The notes under the pieces: model-generated
The model's database searches: none
What the model saw: the letters and a program-made list of their open reading frames with translations, nothing else
Told to the model about the DNA's origin: nothing
Source of the DNA: Bdellovibrio sp. SKB1291214
GTDB lineage: Bacteria; Bdellovibrionota; Bdellovibrionia; Bdellovibrionales; Bdellovibrionaceae
Reading direction: 5' to 3'
NCBI RefSeq assembly: GCF_002209355.2
Contig: NZ_CP106855.1
Coordinates: 3,100,001 to 3,164,000, forward strand
Length of the DNA: 64,000 nt
Part shown: piece by piece, positions 23,467 to 34,733 of the stretch
Numbering within the stretch: the first letter of the stretch is position 1
Layout: every line of letters begins with the position of its first letter
Made by a program: the position numbers and the translations under genes

Positions 23467-24987
23467 CTAGTGCAAGAAATGGCGACGGCCAGTGAAGATC
23501 ATTGAGATATCGCGCTTGTTCGCTTCAGCAATCACGTCTTGGTCTTTGATTGATCCACCTGGTTGAACGATGTATTTCACGCCCACTTTAGACGCCACTT
23601 CGATGGAATCCGGGAATGGGAAGAAAGCATCTGAAGCTAAAACCATTTCAGAGGCATCCGTGACGTTTTTCTCTTTCAAGCGAGGAATCACCAATTTTTC
23701 GATACAATCCACGCGGTTCGTTTGACCTGATCCCAAAGTCACCATTTCAAACTCCGATCCACGCTGCGCACAGACCGCAATGGCATTGCTCTTAAGATTT
23801 TTCACACATAAGAACGCAAAGGCTGCGAGTTTTTGCTTTTCCTGTGGGAAGGAGTTGGTTGTGACGGGAGTAAAGCTTGCGGTTGAGAAATTGTCTTTCT
23901 CCTGAACCAAAGCTCCGCCCTCGATCGTCCGAACTTGCCAGCTGGATTTTTTATCTAAGCTGATGGGAACAAGGCGGCAGTTCTTTTTAAGCATCGTCTG
24001 AGCCTCGGCTGAAAATTCAGGGGCCATAATCACTTCCACAAATTTATCTTGGAAGAAAACGGCCACTTCAGCGGTCACTGGAAAACTAAGTGCCAGAACT
24101 CCACCGAATGAAGACTTCTCATCCCCCTTCCAAGCAAGATCCAGAGCACGAAGTGGCGTTTCAGCTATAGCCAAGCCGCAAGGAGTGTTATGTTTCACAA
24201 CGACAGCAGATGGATGAGCATAGTCACCCTGCCACGCCCAAAGGTCTTTCAAAGACTGGGCGGCAAAGTCTGCATCTAAAAAGTTATTGTAAGACATCTC
24301 TTTGCCTTGAAGAGTCTCTTTGTGAGCTAGGCCTTGAGAAAATGGATCTTTCAAAAGTACGGCTTTTTGGTGAGGATTTTCGCCATAACGAAGTTGCTCA
24401 CCTGTGCTTTGAGTTAAGTAGGCAGCAATGGCCATGTCATAGAACGCCGTCATTGTGTAAACCTTGGCAGCGCATTTTTTACGGAAGTCCATTGAAGTAT
24501 TTCCGTTGTTTTCATTCATATTTGACATGAATTCTTTGTATTGGGAAGGTTCGCACAAAACTGTGACAGCTTCGTGATTCTTAGCTCCGGCGCGCAACAT
24601 CGTAGGTCCACCAATATCGATGTTTTCAACGCACTCCGCGAACTCAGCACCCTTTTCAACTGTTTGATGGAAGGGATATAGGTTCACGACGACCAAGTCG
24701 ATCGGCTTGATCTTCAATTCTTGCGCCCTCGCGATATCTGCTTCGTCATGACGACGGAACAACAATGAAGAAGAGATTTCAAAGCTTAAAGTTTTCATAC
24801 GGCCTTGGAAGGCCTCTGGGTTGCCACTGATTTCCTCAACAGCTGTCACTGGCAATCCAACTTGCTCAAGAGCTTTGGCTGTGCCACCACTTGCAATCAA
24901 CTCCACATTTTGTTTGTGGAGATTTTGCGCAAGCTCAATCAAACCTGTTTTATCGGAAACGCTCAACAGAGCTCTTTTAATTTTCAT
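23467..24987 (-). CDS. purH: Bifunctional AICAR transformylase / IMP cyclohydrolase
   Basis: 506 aa, catalysing the last two steps to IMP. The N-terminal MGS-like IMP cyclohydrolase domain (LLSVSDKTGLIELA, ELIASGGTAKAL) is followed by the transformylase domain with its KHNTPCGLA catalytic Lys-His motif and the late SDAFFPFPDSIE and VQPGGSIKDQ. The start overlaps the purQ end by 11 nt. Full length. Confidence 0.97.
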   Translation of the reverse strand: MKIKRALLSVSDKTGLIELAQNLHKQNVELIASGGTAKALEQVGLPVTAVEEISGNPEAFQGRMKTLSFEISSSLLFRRHDEADIARAQELKIKPIDLVVVNLYPFHQTVEKGAEFAECVENIDIGGPTMLRAGAKNHEAVTVLCEPSQYKEFMSNMNENNGNTSMDFRKKCAAKVYTMTAFYDMAIAAYLTQSTGEQLRYGENPHQKAVLLKDPFSQGLAHKETLQGKEMSYNNFLDADFAAQSLKDLWAWQGDYAHPSAVVVKHNTPCGLAIAETPLRALDLAWKGDEKSSFGGVLALSFPVTAEVAVFFQDKFVEVIMAPEFSAEAQTMLKKNCRLVPISLDKKSSWQVRTIEGGALVQEKDNFSTASFTPVTTNSFPQEKQKLAAFAFLCVKNLKSNAIAVCAQRGSEFEMVTLGSGQTNRVDCIEKLVIPRLKEKNVTDASEMVLASDAFFPFPDSIEVASKVGVKYIVQPGGSIKDQDVIAEANKRDISMIFTGRRHFLH

Positions 24988-25717
24988 GACGACCTTTCAA
25001 GTATTGCAAAGCACTTTTAAAAAATTCCAAACCCCAGGCTTCTCCGTTGAAGGGCAGATGCCAGTCCTGAAGAGCTGCTTCCGGATGAGGCATCAAAGCG
25101 AAAACCAATCCGCTTGAATCACAGACTCCAGCGATACGATCAACCGCCCCGTTAAAGTTTTCCTTATAACGAAGAACGATCTGATTGTTTTTTTGAAGAC
25201 CTTTAAGAACTTCATCACTTTCGCACATAAAGCGACCCTCACCGTGACGTGCAGGTAAAACAAAGTTTTCAGGTAAGTTTTTAGTCCAAATACAAGGTGA
25301 CTTCGTGTTGCGTTCTAGTTCAACCCACTCATTTTGAAAGTGACCCTGTTCGTTTTTAATCAAGGAACAGCTTTTTTGAAAATTTGCGTCGGGTAAAAGT
25401 CCCAAGCGGACCAAGGTTTGAAAGCCGTTACAAATTCCCATGACGGGGAATTTCTTAACGAAGGCCTGAAGCTCTTCTTTAACAAAACGTTCAAGTTTTA
25501 AAGCCAAGATTTGGCCACTGCCCAAGTGATCTCCGAATGAAAATCCACCGGGAATTACCAGACCTTGAAAGTTTCGAAGCATTTCTGGTTTTTCCACCAG
25601 ATCGTTGATGTGAACTTTTTCAGCCTGACCACCTGCGAGTTCCACAGCACGAGCTGTTTCATTTTCGCAGTTAATTCCATCACCCCAAAGGACCATGAAA
25701 TTAGGCGTTGTAGACAT
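24977..25717 (-). CDS. purQ: FGAM synthase, glutaminase subunit
   Basis: 246 aa class I glutamine amidotransferase supplying ammonia to PurL. The nucleophile Cys lies in MGICNGFQTL and the His/Glu of the triad in LMPHPEA; WGDGINCENETA is at the N-terminus. It overlaps the purL end by 17 nt and the purH start by 11 nt. Usual length is 225-260 aa. Confidence 0.96.
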   Translation of the reverse strand: MSTTPNFMVLWGDGINCENETARAVELAGGQAEKVHINDLVEKPEMLRNFQGLVIPGGFSFGDHLGSGQILALKLERFVKEELQAFVKKFPVMGICNGFQTLVRLGLLPDANFQKSCSLIKNEQGHFQNEWVELERNTKSPCIWTKNLPENFVLPARHGEGRFMCESDEVLKGLQKNNQIVLRYKENFNGAVDRIAGVCDSSGLVFALMPHPEAALQDWHLPFNGEAWGLEFFKSALQYLKGRHEN

Positions 25718-28700
25718 TTAAAACTCCTTCAGACCAAATCGTTTGCAGATCAGAAACTTTGACCGAATGGGAATCCCCATTGAAATTCCATTTAAAAGAA
25801 TTATTCGCAGTCACCTGCCCAAGCTTGATCGAGCAACGATCAAAATAACGTTCAAACAATGCGACCTTGTCAGAAGGAACACTGACAACAAATTGAGAGC
25901 CCATTTCCGACCACAAATTTTCCCACTTTAAATCACGCAGATCTATGTCAGCACCCAATGCATTTCCAAAACAGCATTCAGCCAAGGCAGACATCAAACC
26001 GCCTTCTGAAATATCGTGGCAAGAACTTAAAAGATCGTGTTGAATCGCTCCATAGACCAAGCGATATAGATCACGATTCTTAGCTAAATTCGGATATTCA
26101 GGCTTGGATGAAACGGTTTCGAACTCTTGAGCGAATACAGAGGCGGTTAGGCTTTCTGTCAACTGACCCAAAAGGTAAATGTTATCGCCAGCTTTATTAA
26201 AAAACCCGTTTACTGTTTTCCGAGCATCAGGCACTTGGCCGATGGCCGTCATTAACAGTGTCGGGGGAACGGAGATCTTAACTGTTTCCCCTGACTTTAC
26301 TTTACCGATGAAATCATTCTTCATGCTGTCTTTACCACTCACCAGCGGGGCCTTGTAAGCCAACGCCGCGTCGTAAAGACCGGCACAAGCGCGCACCAAT
26401 TGAGCCATCTTGTGTTCAGCATCTGGATTTGATTTTTTCGGAGTGGGATCTGGCCAGCAGAAATTATCAACCAACGCCAACTTATCTGGATCAGCCCCTG
26501 TCGCCACCAAGTTTCGAACAGACTCATCAACTGCACGTTGAGCCATCAAATACGTGTCGTAATAAGAAAGCTGGGGGCACAATCCATTAGACACAGCCAC
26601 GGCATTGTGCTCTTGACCACCATGAACTGATAGATCAATCACACCCGAATTGTTCGCACCCTGCTGAGTGGAACCACCATAAGGTTTAACACGAGTGGCC
26701 CCTTGGACTTCGTGGTCATAATAACGAACTAAGGGTTCACGAGAAGCCACATTGGGATTTGCCAATACAGTTTTAAGAGCTTCTTCGATATGCGCTGACG
26801 TTGGAGCCAAAGTTTTCTTAGGCGTTGCTCTGAAATATTCTTTGTACTCTTTCGGACCTTGGAAGTGAGCATTCAATTCCATTTTACTTAAGCCATCATG
26901 CAGGAACTCAAGTTCTATTTTCGCCAAAGGTTTATCGCCGTAATTGACTTCAAACATCCCTGAGTTCGTGAATTCACCCAAGCAAGAGGCCTCAACGCCC
27001 ATTTTCGCTGCCAATTCCAAGAACTGATGAAGGTTCTCAGGAGCCACCGCAAAAGACATACGCTCTTGAGATTCACTGACCAGCATTTCCCAGAATTCCA
27101 AACCGTGGTACTTCACTGGATGTTTAGAAAGATCCATACGCGCGCCACCCGACAATGTCGCCATTTCTCCGATGGAAGAGCTCACTCCACCAGCACCATT
27201 ATCAGTGATAGCTTGAATCAGGTTTTTATCACGAGCGATCAATGTGAAATCCAAAAGACGTTTTTGTGTGATACTATCGCCGATTTGAACAACGTTGGAT
27301 GCGACTTTATCATTCAATTCTAAGGAGCTGAAGGTCGCCCCGTGAACGCCGTCTTTACCTAAACGACCACCCGCCACAACGATCATATCTCCAGGACGGA
27401 TTGCTTTCATCTCGGTATTTTTGCCGTGAACTTGCTTTGGCATAACTCCCAGAGAGCCGACAAAGATCAAAGGCTTTGCCGCAAATTCGCTAGCAAAGTG
27501 GAAAGCACCGTTTACTGTAGGGATACCGCTTTGATTTCCACCCTCTTCTACACCTTGATGAACTCCGCGAAAGATCACTCCTGGATCTTTCAAAAGATCA
27601 GGACGTTGCGGGTGATCTGTATTCGGGAAAAGATCTTTTTTCGACAGACAGAATACATCCATGTTCGCGATAGGCTTCGCACCCACACCGCAACCAAGGA
27701 TGTCACGATTCACACCCAAGATCCCCGTGATCGCACCGCCGAAGGGATCTAGAGCTGAAGGACTGTTATGAGTTTCAACCTTCACACAGACGTTTACATT
27801 TTTATCAAAATCAACGATACCGGCATTGTCTTTAAAGACCGAAACCAGATAACCACAGTCCTGCAATTTTTTAGTCGCAGCTTGAATATAGGATTTATAA
27901 AGGCTTTTGATTGTTTGGGAACCCAAGCGTGGAACGTCTTTGACGTCGTCCTCTGTATACTCAACATTCGCTGCAAAAATCTTATGTTTACAGTGTTCAC
28001 TCCAAGTCTGTGCCAAGCATTCAATTTCAACTTCAGTCACATATCCCGCCCAGCCCATAGCCGCACGAGCTTTCATTTGTTCTGGAGAAGTAAAATGACT
28101 GATCACGGTCTGAATTTCAACATCAGACAAAGCCAAACCACGTTCTTGATTTAATTTTTCTAAAACTTCTCTTTTTAAAGGGAAGAGTTGCAGTTCTGGT
28201 TTATGTTCAGTTTCGACTTTCCAATAGTCATGGAAGTTACCAAAAGAGTTTTCAATTTTAAGCTCTCTACCACGTTTCACTTGAACCTTTTGAAGCAATG
28301 GATTTGCCAAAGTTTGGAAAAGGACCTTTTCGATTTGGTGTTGATTAAAATCTTCACCCAGTTCGATTTGCCAGCCGCTATGAACTTCAACGGGGAAATC
28401 CTGCCAAGATTTTGTAGAGCCACCAGAAACTAAATACAATGCCTCGGTTGCAGATCTTGCCCAGTTGTCAGTAACCCCACCTAAATAGCGAACTTCGACG
28501 TAAACTTTTCCCTCGTGGTATTCCGGATAACCCATCGTTAGATCTTCAGTGATAGGATCGCAGAAAACCTTTTGCAGATCGTTTTTCATATCCCACTTAG
28601 AAAATGCACCTGGAGTTTTTTCCATCAACCAGAAAACACGGGATAATTTAAGATCTTTTGCAGGAGCCACAGGTCCGAACAACTTTTTTAGATATTCTTC

Positions 28701-28748
28701 CTGAGAGTTATCGATACGACTGCGAACGGCCACTCTATGCTTTAGCAT
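25701..28748 (-). CDS. purL: FGAM synthase, PurL with N-terminal PurS-like region
   Basis: 1015 aa, converting FGAR to FGAM (step 4) with PurQ. It is longer than the small PurL (about 740 aa) and shorter than the single-chain enzyme (about 1300 aa). The extra N-terminus of about 190 residues holds two strand-helix units (VYVEVRYLGGVTDNWARSAT and the LGEDFNQHQIEKV region) that look like a built-in PurS. The synthetase core follows with WSEHCKHK, KVETHNSPSALDPFGGA, NGAGG and the PYGGS region. The glutaminase part is the separate purQ, so this is a PurS-PurL fusion with a detached PurQ. The ATG overlaps the purN stop by 7 nt. Confidence 0.95.
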   Translation of the reverse strand: MLKHRVAVRSRIDNSQEEYLKKLFGPVAPAKDLKLSRVFWLMEKTPGAFSKWDMKNDLQKVFCDPITEDLTMGYPEYHEGKVYVEVRYLGGVTDNWARSATEALYLVSGGSTKSWQDFPVEVHSGWQIELGEDFNQHQIEKVLFQTLANPLLQKVQVKRGRELKIENSFGNFHDYWKVETEHKPELQLFPLKREVLEKLNQERGLALSDVEIQTVISHFTSPEQMKARAAMGWAGYVTEVEIECLAQTWSEHCKHKIFAANVEYTEDDVKDVPRLGSQTIKSLYKSYIQAATKKLQDCGYLVSVFKDNAGIVDFDKNVNVCVKVETHNSPSALDPFGGAITGILGVNRDILGCGVGAKPIANMDVFCLSKKDLFPNTDHPQRPDLLKDPGVIFRGVHQGVEEGGNQSGIPTVNGAFHFASEFAAKPLIFVGSLGVMPKQVHGKNTEMKAIRPGDMIVVAGGRLGKDGVHGATFSSLELNDKVASNVVQIGDSITQKRLLDFTLIARDKNLIQAITDNGAGGVSSSIGEMATLSGGARMDLSKHPVKYHGLEFWEMLVSESQERMSFAVAPENLHQFLELAAKMGVEASCLGEFTNSGMFEVNYGDKPLAKIELEFLHDGLSKMELNAHFQGPKEYKEYFRATPKKTLAPTSAHIEEALKTVLANPNVASREPLVRYYDHEVQGATRVKPYGGSTQQGANNSGVIDLSVHGGQEHNAVAVSNGLCPQLSYYDTYLMAQRAVDESVRNLVATGADPDKLALVDNFCWPDPTPKKSNPDAEHKMAQLVRACAGLYDAALAYKAPLVSGKDSMKNDFIGKVKSGETVKISVPPTLLMTAIGQVPDARKTVNGFFNKAGDNIYLLGQLTESLTASVFAQEFETVSSKPEYPNLAKNRDLYRLVYGAIQHDLLSSCHDISEGGLMSALAECCFGNALGADIDLRDLKWENLWSEMGSQFVVSVPSDKVALFERYFDRCSIKLGQVTANNSFKWNFNGDSHSVKVSDLQTIWSEGVLNVYNA

Positions 28749-29362
28749 TTGACGGTTTCCTTAAAATAATGAGTTGGAATTTCTCCCAAAACGATCTTTT
28801 CTAAAAATTCAGTATAAATTTGATGTTCCAGGCGATGAACGCTGGCTTTGAAATCTGCAAAGGCTGTGAACTCTTTCAATGAAATTGCTGCCTGCTTTAG
28901 CACAGGACCTGCATCCATCCCTTCGTCAACTAAATGTAAGGTCACGCCACTCTCAGAAACTTGATCCGCAAATGCACGCTCCAAAGAATGGGCGCCAGGG
29001 TAAGCTGGCAATAAACTTGGATGAATATTTACGACTTGTGCGCGACCTTCATGACGTTCCGCCAAGGACTTCAAAAAACTCGGAGACAAAAGACGCATGT
29101 ATCCCGCAAGCAAGATCCAGTCGATCTGATGTTGATCAATCAACTTCAAGACCTCTTGCTCATGTTGCAAGCGATCTGCTTTTTTCTTGATAACATAGCG
29201 TCTTGTATTTAAAGACTGAGCTTTTGCTAACACTCCCGCTTCAGTCTTATCAGAAAAAACAAATTCCACCTGCCCGCCCAGGGAGTGCATTTTTTTAATC
29301 AAGGCTTCGGCGTTGGAGCCGGCCCCTGACGCAAAGATGGCGACGCGTGGAGTTTTAATCAT
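28742..29362 (-). CDS. purN: Phosphoribosylglycinamide formyltransferase
   Basis: 206 aa, transferring formyl from 10-formyl-THF to GAR (step 3). Family signatures: VAIFASGAGSNAEAL, the catalytic Asn/His in VNIHPSLLPAYPGAHS, and SGVTLHLVDEGMDAGP with the catalytic Asp. The ATG overlaps the purD stop (ATGA). No formate-dependent purT is in the operon. Confidence 0.97.
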   Translation of the reverse strand: MIKTPRVAIFASGAGSNAEALIKKMHSLGGQVEFVFSDKTEAGVLAKAQSLNTRRYVIKKKADRLQHEQEVLKLIDQHQIDWILLAGYMRLLSPSFLKSLAERHEGRAQVVNIHPSLLPAYPGAHSLERAFADQVSESGVTLHLVDEGMDAGPVLKQAAISLKEFTAFADFKASVHRLEHQIYTEFLEKIVLGEIPTHYFKETVKC

Positions 29363-30597
29363 TGAGCAATGTCCTCTCGGAAGTACAAACCTTGGAATTG
29401 AACTTTGCGGATCTCTTGGTAGGCCTTCATTCGAGCCTCGTCACGAGTTTTCGCCAAAGCCGTCACTCCAAGCACACGACCCCCGGTATTTACCAAGTTT
29501 TCGTTCTTCGTTGATACTCCGGCAAAGTAGATATTTGTACCCTCAGTAGAAGCTGTTGGAATTTGAATCGCGTGGCCTAAATCCATCGTGTTGCCTGGAT
29601 AGCCTTTGCTAACGGCGACAACGTGAACGGAGCGATAGTCATGGAACTCTGTTTTTTGCTTCTCCAAGCGACCTTGAACGGCCTTCACTGAAAGATCCAA
29701 CAAGTCGCTTTTAATTCTTGGAAGTAAGGCCTGAGTTTCTGGATCTCCCAAACGCACGTTGAATTCCAAAACATAAAGTCCCTTATCGGTCTTCATCAGA
29801 CCCGCAAACAAGAAACCTACGTACGGTTTTCCCTTACGTTTCAAAGATTTCAAAGATTTTCTAAAGATGTCATCAATCGCTGCTTCATCGTCTGTAGAAA
29901 TGAAATCACATGGGCTGAATGCCCCCATACCACCCGTGTTCGCACTGAAGGGATCAGGGGTGATGCGTTTATAATCGCAAGCTGTACCCAAGATCACAAA
30001 GTCTTCACCATCGCACAAAGCAAAGGCAGAAAGTTCACGACCGATCAGGCATTCTTCAACTAACAACGGGAAACCGTAAGCCGTCGTCAAATCATGAACC
30101 GCGGCTTTTGCAGTTTCCAAAGTCTCACAGACAGCGACCCCCTTCCCCGCAGCTAAACCATCGGCTTTCACTACAATGGGAGTTTTAAAGTCATGTTTTT
30201 CAAGAAAAGAAATCGCCTCTGCCACCGTATTCGCTTTTTGATAAGCGGCCGTTAAAAGACCTGCGTCCTCTAAGATCTCTTTACAAAAATACTTGGAAGC
30301 TTCTAAATGCGCGGCCTCGCGAGAAGGTGCCAGGCACGCGACACCATTTGCTTCCAAAACTTCTTTAAGGTCAGACAAAATTGCGGCTTCGGGACCGAAA
30401 ACAACCAAATCAACCCGGTTCGTTTTACAAAATGCTAAAACGTCAGGTGTTTTTTCAACGTTCACACATTGAAGACCCACTTTGCTCATTCCTGGATTGC
30501 CAGGAGCAACCCACAAAGTCTCGAGCATCTTTGATTCAGAAATTTTCTGTGCGATCGCGTGTTCGCGACCGCCCTTGCCTACAACCAGGACGCGCAC
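29359..30597 (-). CDS. purD: Phosphoribosylamine-glycine ligase (GAR synthetase)
   Basis: 412 aa ATP-grasp ligase, step 2. The N-terminal MRVLVVGKGGREHAIA, VVKADGLAAGKGV in the ATP-binding loop, and LEFNVRLGDPETQ metal-site motifs are present. The start is GTG at 30597 within the end of purC (19 nt overlap). Somewhat shorter than the usual 425-430 aa but with all motifs. Confidence 0.96.
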   Translation of the reverse strand: MRVLVVGKGGREHAIAQKISESKMLETLWVAPGNPGMSKVGLQCVNVEKTPDVLAFCKTNRVDLVVFGPEAAILSDLKEVLEANGVACLAPSREAAHLEASKYFCKEILEDAGLLTAAYQKANTVAEAISFLEKHDFKTPIVVKADGLAAGKGVAVCETLETAKAAVHDLTTAYGFPLLVEECLIGRELSAFALCDGEDFVILGTACDYKRITPDPFSANTGGMGAFSPCDFISTDDEAAIDDIFRKSLKSLKRKGKPYVGFLFAGLMKTDKGLYVLEFNVRLGDPETQALLPRIKSDLLDLSVKAVQGRLEKQKTEFHDYRSVHVVAVSKGYPGNTMDLGHAIQIPTASTEGTNIYFAGVSTKNENLVNTGGRVLGVTALAKTRDEARMKAYQEIRKVQFQGLYFREDIAQ

Positions 30598-31601
30598 TGC
30601 TGTCTCCAGTTTTTCAAACTTGCTTCTTTTTCAAAGGGAGCCGTCTTACCTAATGACCACGCCATCTCATTCGCCAGAGATGTGTAAAGCATTGATGCCA
30701 CTTTAATTTGCTCTGGATTCAACACTTGCGGAACTTCCTTAAGCTCATGAGCGCAAATTTCTTTCCAGTTATTAGCACCACGTTCTTTGGCGATATCTTT
30801 CGCTTTACCAACAGCTTGATACCAAGTTGTTGGAGCATAAATCTGACGAAGGAATTCTTTAGACAACGGAGCGTTTTCGTAAGTCAATCGCAGCTCGTCA
30901 GGGCCGATGGAATCAACCATGAACAACTCCCGTCCATTCTCCCCGCGTCCGCCGAAAGCGAATTCGAATTTTCCGTCCCACAACTTGACACCGAAAGAAG
31001 CAAATAAGGATTGTAAGTGTTTTGCCACCTCTTCCGTCATTTTGCGGACTTGCGCCAGTTCGTTGGCATCAATCACGTTCAGGTCTTGGATTTCTTTGTT
31101 TGTCATATAACGATCTGTCGTCTCAAGCTTCGTCGAATACTCGACGATCGGCGGCATGAAAGTTTTTGAGGAATCTGGAATTTCAGTGAGGCCCAATTCC
31201 GCCATGTAAGCCGGATTCTTTTTCAAGCGGCCTTCTAAAGAATTTCCTTTACCCAAAAGGATGCGGAAGATCACTTCTAAAGGAACCAAACAGTTCGTGG
31301 GTTTATCAGCATAAACTGTATAATCGTAAACACCGTTTTCCCAAATAGGACGATGAACAGCGACTTCATTCACCAAAATGGAATCCGCGCTGTGCGGTTT
31401 CATGTAATGAGACTCGATGCCTTTGTCTTTCAAATGTTCAAAAAACATCCCGGCCATAGCTGCCAAGGCCTCACCCTTTTGAGGGATTTCGTTAGGCATT
31501 TCGCCCCAATCAAAAACCGAGTAACGATTGCTGTATTTGAAAAGCAGTCCTGCATCTGTTTTATAGATGTCTTTTACGGAACCACGGTACAAAAGGTTCA
31601 T
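30579..31601 (-). CDS. purC: SAICAR synthetase
   Basis: 340 aa, condensing CAIR with aspartate (step 7). The N-terminal LYRGSVKDIYKT matches the family's L-Y-x-G-(K/S)-x-K-x-I-Y start, and YSVFDWGEMPNEIPQKG corresponds to the substrate loop. It is about 100 residues longer than the E. coli enzyme (237 aa), closer in size to the eukaryotic single-domain form. The start is the ATG at 31601, which overlaps the purE stop by 4 nt; a longer in-frame extension would run into purE and is unlikely. Confidence 0.93.
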   Translation of the reverse strand: MNLLYRGSVKDIYKTDAGLLFKYSNRYSVFDWGEMPNEIPQKGEALAAMAGMFFEHLKDKGIESHYMKPHSADSILVNEVAVHRPIWENGVYDYTVYADKPTNCLVPLEVIFRILLGKGNSLEGRLKKNPAYMAELGLTEIPDSSKTFMPPIVEYSTKLETTDRYMTNKEIQDLNVIDANELAQVRKMTEEVAKHLQSLFASFGVKLWDGKFEFAFGGRGENGRELFMVDSIGPDELRLTYENAPLSKEFLRQIYAPTTWYQAVGKAKDIAKERGANNWKEICAHELKEVPQVLNPEQIKVASMLYTSLANEMAWSLGKTAPFEKEASLKNWRQQCASWL

Positions 31602-32305
31602 ACCAATGCCTCTTTCATTTTTTTGATTTGAAGAAGGAAGTTTGTGATGTTGTTGACACCCACCCAAGCGCCACCGGATTTAGCAACGGCAAAGAATTCG
31701 TTCGCAAGGTTTGAGTTTTTAAGTTCTTCTTTATCACAGATGTACATGCAAAGATTTTTGCCTTGAGGTTTTTCGCCCACCATCACAAGCTCACCTTGGC
31801 AATGCGGACTGTTTGGATCAACCCATACAACTTCCACACCCGCTTTTTCGCGGATATCTTGAAGCATTTTTGCCAAAACCGGAACTTCACTGCGGTATGG
31901 ATTCCAAGAAAGTTCCAGCTTGTCTTGGTTATAGCCTTTGGCCTTTTTCAAAAGCTCTGGAAGAAGCTCGATCTGATTTTCCATAACCGCAGCCACTGGG
32001 ATATCTTTTGGCATTTGCGCAATCGATAAGAACGCATCCATTCCGCCGAAAGCCCCGTTGATGGCTACGCCAAACACTGGCTTTTGAGTCAAGGACGCCA
32101 CAACACCTGGCAGATGAGCTGCAAGACCCGCTCCCGCCACAAAAGCATTCGCTTCTGATGTTGTTACAACTTCACGAACACGTGCTGGATGACGGTGGGC
32201 TGAAGCCACTTCCATCTTTACGTTCGCAACGTTTTCCAATGATTGACACAAAGGAGCGTAAACACGCTCATCACTTTGACTGCCGAAAAGAACTTGAATC
32301 TTCAT
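31598..32305 (-). CDS. purE: PurE-family AIR carboxylase/N5-CAIR mutase with C-terminal extension
   Basis: 235 aa. The first 160 residues are the PurE core: LFGSQSDERV, VASAHRHPARV, AGAGLAAHLPGVVAS and MDAFLSIAQMPKDIPVA. The SAHR motif resembles class I mutases, but no purK is in the operon, so whether it uses CO2 directly (class II) or N5-CAIR is unresolved. Residues about 155-235 are an extra domain not present in ordinary PurE (160-170 aa), with WVDPNSPHCQGELVMVGE and a strand-rich end. It is coupled by ATGA overlaps to purF and purC. Confidence 0.88.
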   Translation of the reverse strand: MKIQVLFGSQSDERVYAPLCQSLENVANVKMEVASAHRHPARVREVVTTSEANAFVAGAGLAAHLPGVVASLTQKPVFGVAINGAFGGMDAFLSIAQMPKDIPVAAVMENQIELLPELLKKAKGYNQDKLELSWNPYRSEVPVLAKMLQDIREKAGVEVVWVDPNSPHCQGELVMVGEKPQGKNLCMYICDKEELKNSNLANEFFAVAKSGGAWVGVNNITNFLLQIKKMKEALV

Positions 32306-33738
32306 ACGTTCACCTCGTTTTTACCGCCGCCACCGATATTGTGGGTGCGAGCATTAATAAAATCTTCTTTAGAAACTGGAACTGGATAATCGCCATCTAA
32401 AAGTTGAGTCAGTGGCAGGTAAATCAATCCATCCACTCCCAACAACTCAGCCACTTGGTCTTCGGTCCGTTTGTGTGCGACCAAAGCTTCCCCTTCCGGG
32501 AAATCAATACCGTAAAAACATGGATTACGAATCGGAGGACACGTGCTTGCTAAGTAAACTTTCTTAGCGCCCGATTCTCTCAGTAACTGAATGATTCGCG
32601 CAGATGTCGTGCCGCGAACAATGCTGTCATCGACCAGCAAAATACTTTTACCGCGGATTTCACTTTCAACCGGCATAAGCTTAAGATTAACCATAGCTTT
32701 ACGAACTTCCGGTTCGTTTACGATAAAGCTTCTTTGCACATAGCGATTTTTGATCAGAACTTCGCGGTAAGGTGTGTGTAAAACTTCTGCCAAACGAAGA
32801 GCAGCCGCGCGAGACGTGTCTGGCACAGGAGCCACCACATCAATTTCAATTCCCTGTTCTTGCATCTTACGACGAGTTTCATTCGCTAATACTTCGCCAA
32901 GTCGCAAGCGCACATCATACACCGGGCGCCCATGCCATTCTGTTTCCGCACCCGCGAAATAAATCCACTCAAACATACAAGGACGGGCTTTTTTCTCGGC
33001 CATGGGGTAAGAGTGGAAATTCTGGTCTTTATCAACGAAAACAAATTCCCCGGGCTTCAGATCACGGAAGTACTCGAAGCCCAGGGCGAAAAACACCTGC
33101 TTTTCAGAGGCAAAACAATAGCTATATTTATCCCCGATAGATTTTCGTCCTATTAATAGAGGACGAATTCCTTGGGTGTCGTTAAAGGCAAACATACCCT
33201 CGTCAGCCATCATGCCGACGACACTGTAAGCGCCTTGAACTTTTTCGACGACCTGCTGAGCTGCCTTGCCCAGAATTTCAGGAGATAATTCCTTACCAGC
33301 CTCCAGCTGATCCGAAACACCAATCGACATCATATGCAGAAGTAATTCCAAGTCGTTACGAGTGAACGTCCAACGACTGCGGCGCTTACGAACGTACTCA
33401 ACGATCTCATTATAATTAGTCACGTTCCCGTTGTGGGCCATGCCGATACCGTTTGGATAACTGACGATCAGAGGTTGAAGGTCCGCTTTCTCGACCGTTC
33501 CAATCGTGGAATAGCGAGTATGTCCCAAAGCCATGCTGCCTTTAATCTTTTCCAATTTATCCATTGGAAAGACCTGAGAGACCAATCCCAGATCCTTTTC
33601 AAGATGAAACTCACCTCGAGAGAAATCGAAACTTAAAATACCCGCGGCGTCCTGACCACGGTGCTGAAGGGCAAACAAAGCGGGAAATAATTTTTCGCCC
33701 GCTTTATCTTCACCAATCAACCCCACAACTCCACACAT
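32302..33738 (-). CDS. purF: Amidophosphoribosyltransferase
   Basis: 478 aa, committing step of purine synthesis (PRPP + Gln to phosphoribosylamine). Met is followed by Cys2, the N-terminal nucleophile of the glutaminase (MCGVVGLIGE). RGQDAAGI and LGHTRYSTIG follow, and the C-terminal PRPP-binding loop is ILLVDDSIVRGTTS. The ATG at 33738 has AGGAG at 5 nt. First gene of the operon, behind a structured leader of about 250 nt. Confidence 0.97.
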   Translation of the reverse strand: MCGVVGLIGEDKAGEKLFPALFALQHRGQDAAGILSFDFSRGEFHLEKDLGLVSQVFPMDKLEKIKGSMALGHTRYSTIGTVEKADLQPLIVSYPNGIGMAHNGNVTNYNEIVEYVRKRRSRWTFTRNDLELLLHMMSIGVSDQLEAGKELSPEILGKAAQQVVEKVQGAYSVVGMMADEGMFAFNDTQGIRPLLIGRKSIGDKYSYCFASEKQVFFALGFEYFRDLKPGEFVFVDKDQNFHSYPMAEKKARPCMFEWIYFAGAETEWHGRPVYDVRLRLGEVLANETRRKMQEQGIEIDVVAPVPDTSRAAALRLAEVLHTPYREVLIKNRYVQRSFIVNEPEVRKAMVNLKLMPVESEIRGKSILLVDDSIVRGTTSARIIQLLRESGAKKVYLASTCPPIRNPCFYGIDFPEGEALVAHKRTEDQVAELLGVDGLIYLPLTQLLDGDYPVPVSKEDFINARTHNIGGGGKNEVNV

Positions 33739-33755
33739 CGATTGCTCCTAAAGCT

Positions 33756-33777
33756 GTGGCATCGTCACTGATGCCAC
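33756..33777 (-). promoter_or_regulatory. Hairpin directly before the purF ribosome site
   Basis: GTGGCATC/GATGCCAC, an 8 bp perfect stem with a 6 nt loop, ends about 5 nt before the purF Shine-Dalgarno (33744-33750). It lies after the terminator-like hairpin, so it exists only in read-through transcripts. It could be part of a translational or anti-termination switch, or stabilise the operon mRNA. Confidence 0.55.
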
Positions 33778-33780
33778 CTT

Positions 33781-33813
33781 AAAAATAAAAAAGGCGCCTA
33801 CACGGACGCCTTT
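33781..33813 (-). terminator. Terminator-like hairpin in the pur leader
   Basis: On the minus strand AAAGGCG-t-CC pairs with GGCGCCTTT (33790-33813; 9 bp with one bulge), followed by TTTTTTATTTTT. No minus-strand gene ends upstream of it within the intergenic region, so it appears to interrupt the purF transcript itself: a candidate attenuator. Confidence 0.7.
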
Positions 33814-34000
33814 ATTGATACAGTTATTTAGTTTTGAGATTTGGATTTTTGGAGACACGACGGGAGTTCGGCCCAGATTTTGGTGGCAGCACGGGTATGA
33901 GTCACCCGATTCCCACTTCTTCAGTCGGAAACGCGACGAGAAATTTACTCTTTTGAGTCTATCCATCAGCATTTAGTTGTCCCTTGAAATGCTGTAGAGG
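33814..34000 (-). ncRNA. Structured 5' leader of the pur operon (candidate riboswitch/attenuator)
   Basis: In transcript order this holds: CAGCATTT/AAATGCTG (33967-33994, 8 bp, 12 nt loop); ACTC/GAGT; GTCG/CGAC with a 6 nt loop; and a two-part stem GTGG/CCAC enclosing CGGGT/ACCCG. An unpaired A-rich stretch then leads to the terminator hairpin at 33790-33813. Pieces such as GACUG, AAGUGGGA and CUGGGC recall the ZTP (pfl) riboswitch of purine genes, but the invariant CCGCCUGGGC block is absent, so I do not assign it. No strong promoter was found; TTGACG at 34027-34022 is a possible -35. Confidence 0.5.
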
Positions 34001-34175
34001 CTATCGATTCTGACAAAGTTTCGTCAATGGCCCTAACAGAACCCTGACAATTCAACGCGAGGCAACTTAGTTAAAAACCAACGGACTCATTGGAGTGAGC
34101 GATGGAGTCGCACGTTCCGCCGCTCATATATATAGTGGATGGACGATTTATCTCTCTCCCGCTAACCTTCAAAGT

Positions 34176-34733
34176 ATGATTAAAGTGCTCGTTATAGCTG
34201 TCGTTCTCCTGACTCACCTTACTACTTTCGCCCAAACGAAAGATGATGATGATCCTTGCGACAAGCAAGAAGAGCAAGCCATCATCAAAACTTGGAATGC
34301 GTGCAAGGCGAAAAAACATAAATCCTTGAAAACCTGGAAAACTCTAGAAGAAGCCAAGTGCGCTATCGAGGATGCAATTAGAAAGAGAGAATCAAAAACA
34401 CTTTTGCCCTACGTGGGCTGCGACGCTTACGACAGCACTCGCAACGAACTGCATTGTCTTTCTAACGAATTCGTCCTTGTAAAAAACAATATTCACACCC
34501 TGGGAGAATATTCATTGGGAGAAAAGACTCTAAAATCTTCCAAATGGATCACTCCGACAGACAAGGAGAAAAAAGATGTCCTTTCTTTATGTGGAGCTGA
34601 CTATGGTTTTAAAGCGGCTTTCAACTCCTGCGATCCAACTGAAAAAATTCAACCCATCGTTGATATAGCAAAATCAAAATATGGCTACTACCTCATAGGC
34701 CTTTCTATCTCGGGAGTCGCAATCCCTAAATGA
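34176..34733 (+). CDS. Hypothetical secreted protein
   Basis: 185 aa. The start is taken at the ATG at 34176, because a signal peptide (about 1-20, ending TFAQ) begins there; a longer frame would put 27 hydrophilic residues before it. The mature part is Lys- and Cys-rich (eight cysteines, several as evenly spaced pairs), with an N-terminal DDDD cluster. It is probably an extracytoplasmic disulfide-bonded protein. No family recognised. It is divergent from the pur operon leader. Confidence 0.7.
   Translation: MIKVLVIAVVLLTHLTTFAQTKDDDDPCDKQEEQAIIKTWNACKAKKHKSLKTWKTLEEAKCAIEDAIRKRESKTLLPYVGCDAYDSTRNELHCLSNEFVLVKNNIHTLGEYSLGEKTLKSSKWITPTDKEKKDVLSLCGADYGFKAAFNSCDPTEKIQPIVDIAKSKYGYYLIGLSISGVAIPK

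Follow-up and report, generated by a model that had tools for sequence, protein, structure and literature searches.

Polymerase–ribosome coupling as a means of nucleotide sensing is textbook pyrimidine control in enteric bacteria. The pyrL leader of E. coli K-12, which serves as our yardstick, is a 44-aa open reading frame (ORF) that runs through an intrinsic terminator (CCCCTCAATCGAGGGG-T8) and stops 3 nt before pyrB. Tight coupling across this leader is described as preventing the terminator (PMC5021804), and UTP as setting the coupling through a U-rich stretch (PMC3641672). Closely following ribosomes are likewise described as repressing terminators, with catch-up expected within 100–200 nt (PMC4824070). 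In the Salmonella mgtCBR leader, polymerase pausing at adenines in the short leader ORF mgtM at low ATP has been proposed, together with coupling (PMC3641672). Here we compare these systems with the leader of a Bdellovibrio purine operon, which lies in a 64,000-nt stretch of genomic DNA (the window, to which all coordinates refer). A limited literature search, from which we draw no wider claim, found no report of this leader.

The operon is read from the minus strand. The genome belongs to a relative of Bdellovibrio, as the closest named matches to its PurF come from Bdellovibrio and Bdellovibrionaceae MAGs. Its first gene, purF (32302–33738), encodes amidophosphoribosyltransferase with GATase and Pribosyltran domains, and Pfam identifies AIR carboxylase, SAICAR synthetase, GAR synthetase, formyltransferase and FGAM synthetase-like genes downstream on the same strand (25701–32305), with a purH-family match further downstream (23698–24585). 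Twenty of the 24 Bdellovibrio genomes in our genus set carry purF. The other four (G010, G011, G016 and G020) give just weak matches to PurF at about 30% identity, which we take for other glutamine amidotransferases; purH is also missing in three of them and kept in G016. These four are possible purine auxotrophs.

Between a promoter-like element and purF, the original prediction had placed a terminator hairpin with a T-run, and we find it confirmed at 33813–33780 on the minus strand. The hairpin has a 9-bp stem and a 6-nt loop (AAAGGCGTC-CGTGTA-GGCGCCTTT) and is followed by TTTATTTTTA; in the sequence, the T-run sits at the expected transcript 3′ end, near 33783. All nine pairs are standard in each of the 20 purF leaders (180 of 180 pairs), and two have switched with both sides changed, pair 3 between A-U and C-G and pair 6 between C-G and A-U; the hairpin is therefore beyond chance. 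It is the sole structure kept in all 20 leaders. RNAalifold, applied to 11 of the 20, likewise returns one well-supported helix, the terminator, with a covariation term that is unfavourable overall (+0.37). Folding of the whole leader is barely better than that of shuffles (z −1.9). A two-part GTGG/CCAC arrangement and an extra hairpin beside the purF ribosome site (33756–33777, minus strand, within the leader ORF described below) had also been pointed out; both exist, though confined to the genome of the window and the two species nearest to it (G000, G012 and G022; 3 of 20). A tRNA or tmRNA remnant, considered for a T-arm-like stretch (GGGCCGAACTCCC), was rejected, as the window holds no tRNA and the stretch is not conserved.

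The original prediction saw no gene ahead of the terminator, a view not borne out by the sequence, in which a 74-codon frame spans it. This leader ORF (33748–33972, minus strand) begins with an ATG at 33972, after CAAGGGACAACTAA and 25 nt past the predicted −10 box, crosses the terminator and T-run, and ends with a TAG at 33750–33748 that overlaps the purF Shine–Dalgarno sequence (AGGAG, 33745–33749, minus strand, as read from the sequence). The frame is open through the terminator and T-run in all 20 species that have purF, and the remaining two frames over the same stretches are open in 0 of 40 cases. Shuffled sequence keeps the leader frame open in 0.9–14% of trials per species, chances that do not multiply given the kinship of the species. 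In none of the 20 species does the stop codon come before the T-run has ended; it ends −13 to +21 relative to the A of purF. Among 58 other terminator-like sites of the loci analysed, taken as controls, 18 are likewise spanned by an open frame (the pyrB hairpin discussed below accounts for 10, the purF hairpin read on its reverse strand for 2, and 6 are others); the comparison took in 19 purF terminators, of which 18 scored as ORF-spanned. The ORF starts with ATG in 19 species and TTG in one, begins 141–251 nt before purF (much of the middle is missing in L013) and encodes peptides of 45–82 residues, within leaders whose length varies widely among species. Ribosome sites ahead of it are weak: even a permissive list of short purine words finds one in just 17 of the 20.

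The frame evolves like coding sequence. We took the 11 of the 20 leaders that align more readily and aligned their DNA with the reading frame left out of account. Gaps within the ORF fall into 10 distinct runs, each a multiple of three in length, and codon position agrees in all 7345 pairwise aligned columns of the ORF. Parsimony changes at codon positions 1/2/3 number 55/50/87 (p = 2e-4), compared with 321/97/1474 in purF. The kept frame, the agreement in codon position and this distribution of changes together indicate purifying selection on the leader peptide, much weaker than that on purF. Searches of four leader peptides against Pfam and NCBIfam found no family above cut-off (best Pfam match E 0.045).

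Upstream of the hairpin lies an A-rich, G-poor tract (33813–33852, minus strand; A 53%, G 3%). Across the 20 species, the 40 nt upstream of the hairpin contain 38–60% A and 3–17% G, compared with 18–31% A in the rest of each leader ORF. The mean A fraction before the extended stem is 0.44 at 19 purF sites versus 0.30 at the 58 other terminator-like sites (Mann–Whitney p = 3e-8, a value not to be taken literally because related sequences are not independent). One of five other terminators in the window is equally A-rich, and the tract may be partly ordinary.

At the upstream end of the leader, a promoter/operator element (33998–34059, minus strand) is kept in 20 of 20 purF leaders, with 86% mean column identity over 63 columns. 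It comprises the direct-repeat-like words TGTCAGG and TGTTAGG, about 11 nt apart, and then TTGACG. Read from the sequence, the predicted promoter (33998–34027, minus strand) consists of TTGACG (34027–34022), an 18-nt spacer and TAGCCT (34003–33998), and most species have TTGAC, an 18-nt spacer and TAGnnT, the last of which we read as a putative −10 box by analogy with pyrB promoters (TTGACA-17-TAGGCT). A model of the element (R1) gives exactly one strong match (E ≤ 1.1e-14) in each of the 20 purF-bearing genomes and no strong match in the four without purF (next best E 0.005); with no second strong site in any of the 24 genomes, there is no sign of a regulon in this set. Its conservation suggests a candidate site for a dedicated activator or repressor. 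The product of a divergent gene upstream of the leader (34177–34733, plus strand) is short, looks secreted and matches no Pfam family.

We propose, with a probability of roughly 0.6, that the purine operon of Bdellovibrio is under the control of a pyrBI-like attenuator based on transcription–translation coupling, with ATP as the probable signal. The leader architecture is well supported and favours the attenuator reading of the original prediction. Transcription would begin just past the conserved promoter, and a ribosome would load on the leader ORF. Since the ORF includes the 5′ arm of the terminator, a ribosome close behind RNA polymerase would cover that arm and the polymerase would enter purF, while the leader stop at the purF start would hand ribosomes over to purF. 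With the polymerase ahead of the ribosome, the hairpin would form and transcription would end near 33783, leaving a non-stop RNA. Termination would thus be conditional. The hairpin begins about 90–205 nt into the ORF in the 20 species, roughly the distance at which a ribosome should be drawing level with the polymerase (PMC4824070). Its probable sensor is the preceding tract, rich in A and poor in G: scarce ATP would slow the polymerase there, the ribosome would catch up and the operon would be read, whereas plentiful purines, as inside prey, would lead to termination.

Like pyrL, the Bdellovibrio leader ORF passes through an intrinsic terminator upstream of the operon and stops near the first gene (20 of 20 for each), without a competing antiterminator in 17 of 20 leaders, where no segment pairs with a terminator arm above shuffles. 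In pyrL the tract before the hairpin is rich in the pathway's own nucleotide (T 35%, A 10%), and the A-rich Bdellovibrio tract may be its purine counterpart. Unlike pyrBI, which serves pyrimidine genes through UTP, the Bdellovibrio operon is a purine operon with an A-rich tract, and we therefore file it as working like pyrBI rather than as a member. The peptide also differs, being mostly longer, unrelated and under weak constraint, and the conserved architecture is confined in this survey to Bdellovibrio. The adenine stretch in a short leader ORF recalls mgtM, for which pausing and coupling have likewise been proposed; there, however, high ATP is described as promoting expression through alternative stem-loops (PMC3641672), whereas the Bdellovibrio terminator is inside the ORF and high ATP should repress. 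Attenuators of the trp/his type share the leader peptide and terminator, but the Bdellovibrio leaders have neither a shared codon run nor a shared antiterminator. On sequence grounds, a purine attenuator of pyrBI architecture appears to be present in every purF-bearing Bdellovibrio genome of the set.

Some features sit uneasily with ATP-dependent coupling, namely the weak leader ribosome sites, the one TTG start, and the 8–9 weak pairs with few G-C that L005, L006 and L014 can form with a terminator arm. The conserved promoter element also suggests an extra regulator acting at initiation, which could alone explain purine control. The constraint on the peptide exceeds what pure coupling needs, and it speaks for a translated attenuator with a nascent-peptide sensor, in which a purine or another metabolite would stall the ribosome at RVSxxPKCxxNLN or PPSGG. 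A ribosome held there would be too distant to cover the hairpin, and transcription would stop. Codon-position changes are 8/2/17 around PPSGG and 12/4/13 around RVS..PKC, and the motif is recognisable in most of the 20 peptides; it is missing or shifted in the G000 clade, L006 and L013, and the third-position excess is weak beside that of purF, which leaves such a sensor unlikely. A ribosome slowed on the leader for whatever reason would give the terminator the advantage, and the same device might report not ATP but the overall capacity for translation or the supply of amino acids. Several leaders contain PP motifs, and polyproline stalls in the absence of EF-P are described as raising termination at the pyrL hairpin (PMC5021804). 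No codon run for a single amino acid is common to the 20 peptides, however, and PP is missing in L002–L004, L006, L013, L019 and L021; we hold this reading to be rather improbable.

The other two explanations dispense with coupling. A riboswitch or an attenuator bound by an RNA-binding protein, as originally suggested, would suit a terminator in a purine leader and the several local stems seen in single leaders, and the ZTP (pfl) riboswitch, to which the leader had been likened, is itself a purine-linked leader with a terminator. Its covariance model (RF01750) gives 0 gathering matches in the window and is not among the 11 weak Rfam matches obtained on the leader at E ≤ 10; no Rfam family reaches threshold anywhere in the 64,000 nt. 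Together with the lack of a shared antiterminator and of any other supported helix in the 11 leaders folded jointly, this argues against a conserved aptamer with an antiterminator, and with an ORF start that ranges from 141 to 251 nt before purF and the gap in L013 it makes a riboswitch or protein-bound RNA very improbable. Hardly more plausible is an ordinary small-protein gene with the hairpin as its 3′ end, purF being reached by leak-through and controlled at initiation through the operator. That operator is strongly conserved and unique to purF; yet with a stop that in no species precedes the end of the T-run (0 of 20), terminated RNAs would carry no stop codon, and the four peptides searched belong to no Pfam or NCBIfam family above cut-off.

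A proteomic study of B. bacteriovorus gives the amidophosphoribosyltransferase Bd3009 at 0.06-fold two hours into prey, and its authors suggest that it is suppressed as the predator draws on purines from its prey (PMC12546842). From its product name and rough position, we regard Bd3009 as the purF studied here. The drop fits termination at high purine, and a repressor would fit equally. In a published list of attack-phase sRNAs, from which 5′ UTRs were excluded, none of the 8 entries is near 2.908 Mb (PMC3627812). The proposed attenuator would offer a mechanism for the collapse of amidophosphoribosyltransferase while the predator feeds. If correct, it would provide a purine counterpart to pyrBI in a distant predatory lineage, imply that the coupling logic is general, and open a direct experimental route to the question of whether coupling is set by ATP pools.

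Outside the genus, a strict detector found the leader architecture at 0 of 85 other purF loci (of 108 loci in all, 20 are from Bdellovibrio and 3 lacked enough upstream sequence); the detector misses one looser case, L025, spotted by eye. At that locus, in a genome of another family (G049), an unrelated leader ORF (MPVTVNRQ...) crosses a looser terminator into purF, and the sister genome G037 has, also by eye, a short leader ORF without a terminator.

In 22 of 24 Bdellovibrio genomes, pyrB also contains a terminator-like hairpin near the 5′ end of its coding sequence (GGGCTTCGG-NAAAA-CCGGAGCCC, with up to two mismatches), about 110–150 nt inside the gene and followed by a T-rich run. In the window genome it is outside the window, at about 18094–18116 of contig C1 of G000 (loci L172–L195 across genomes). 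Its codons show 1.6 third-position changes each, versus 6.9 elsewhere in conserved codons, which amounts to strong synonymous constraint on the stem, and the one free codon is the loop (GGN, 7 changes). In G004 the hairpin has diverged, with both arms altered and a weaker energy, and G017 has none. Synonymous resampling reaches the observed stability in 0.1–0.3% of cases for five of the seven genes tried, and in 16% and 70% for G004 and G017, respectively. The pyrB-like gene seems leaderless or nearly so in 24 of 24 genomes, its start reading TTGACA-17-TAGGCT and then TTCTAGATG, and a terminator leader is found in the 200 nt upstream in 0 of 24. The hairpin is thus a candidate intragenic attenuator, and pyrB may be its own pyrBI-style leader. 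The stretch before the hairpin is mildly U-rich (T 0.33 versus 0.26, 23 of 24 genes), which lends little weight to a nucleotide-matched tract at pyrB. Tentatively, and with the odds against it, both nucleotide pathways might be governed by terminators in translated frames, purines through an ATP-sensing leader ORF and pyrimidines through pyrB as its own leader; polymerase speed would then gauge the nucleotide pool and signal to the predator that purines and pyrimidines from the prey are running out. Immediately beyond pyrB there is a match to the carA family, and in many species a palindrome, CTAGATGTCATCTAG, covers the pyrB start codon.
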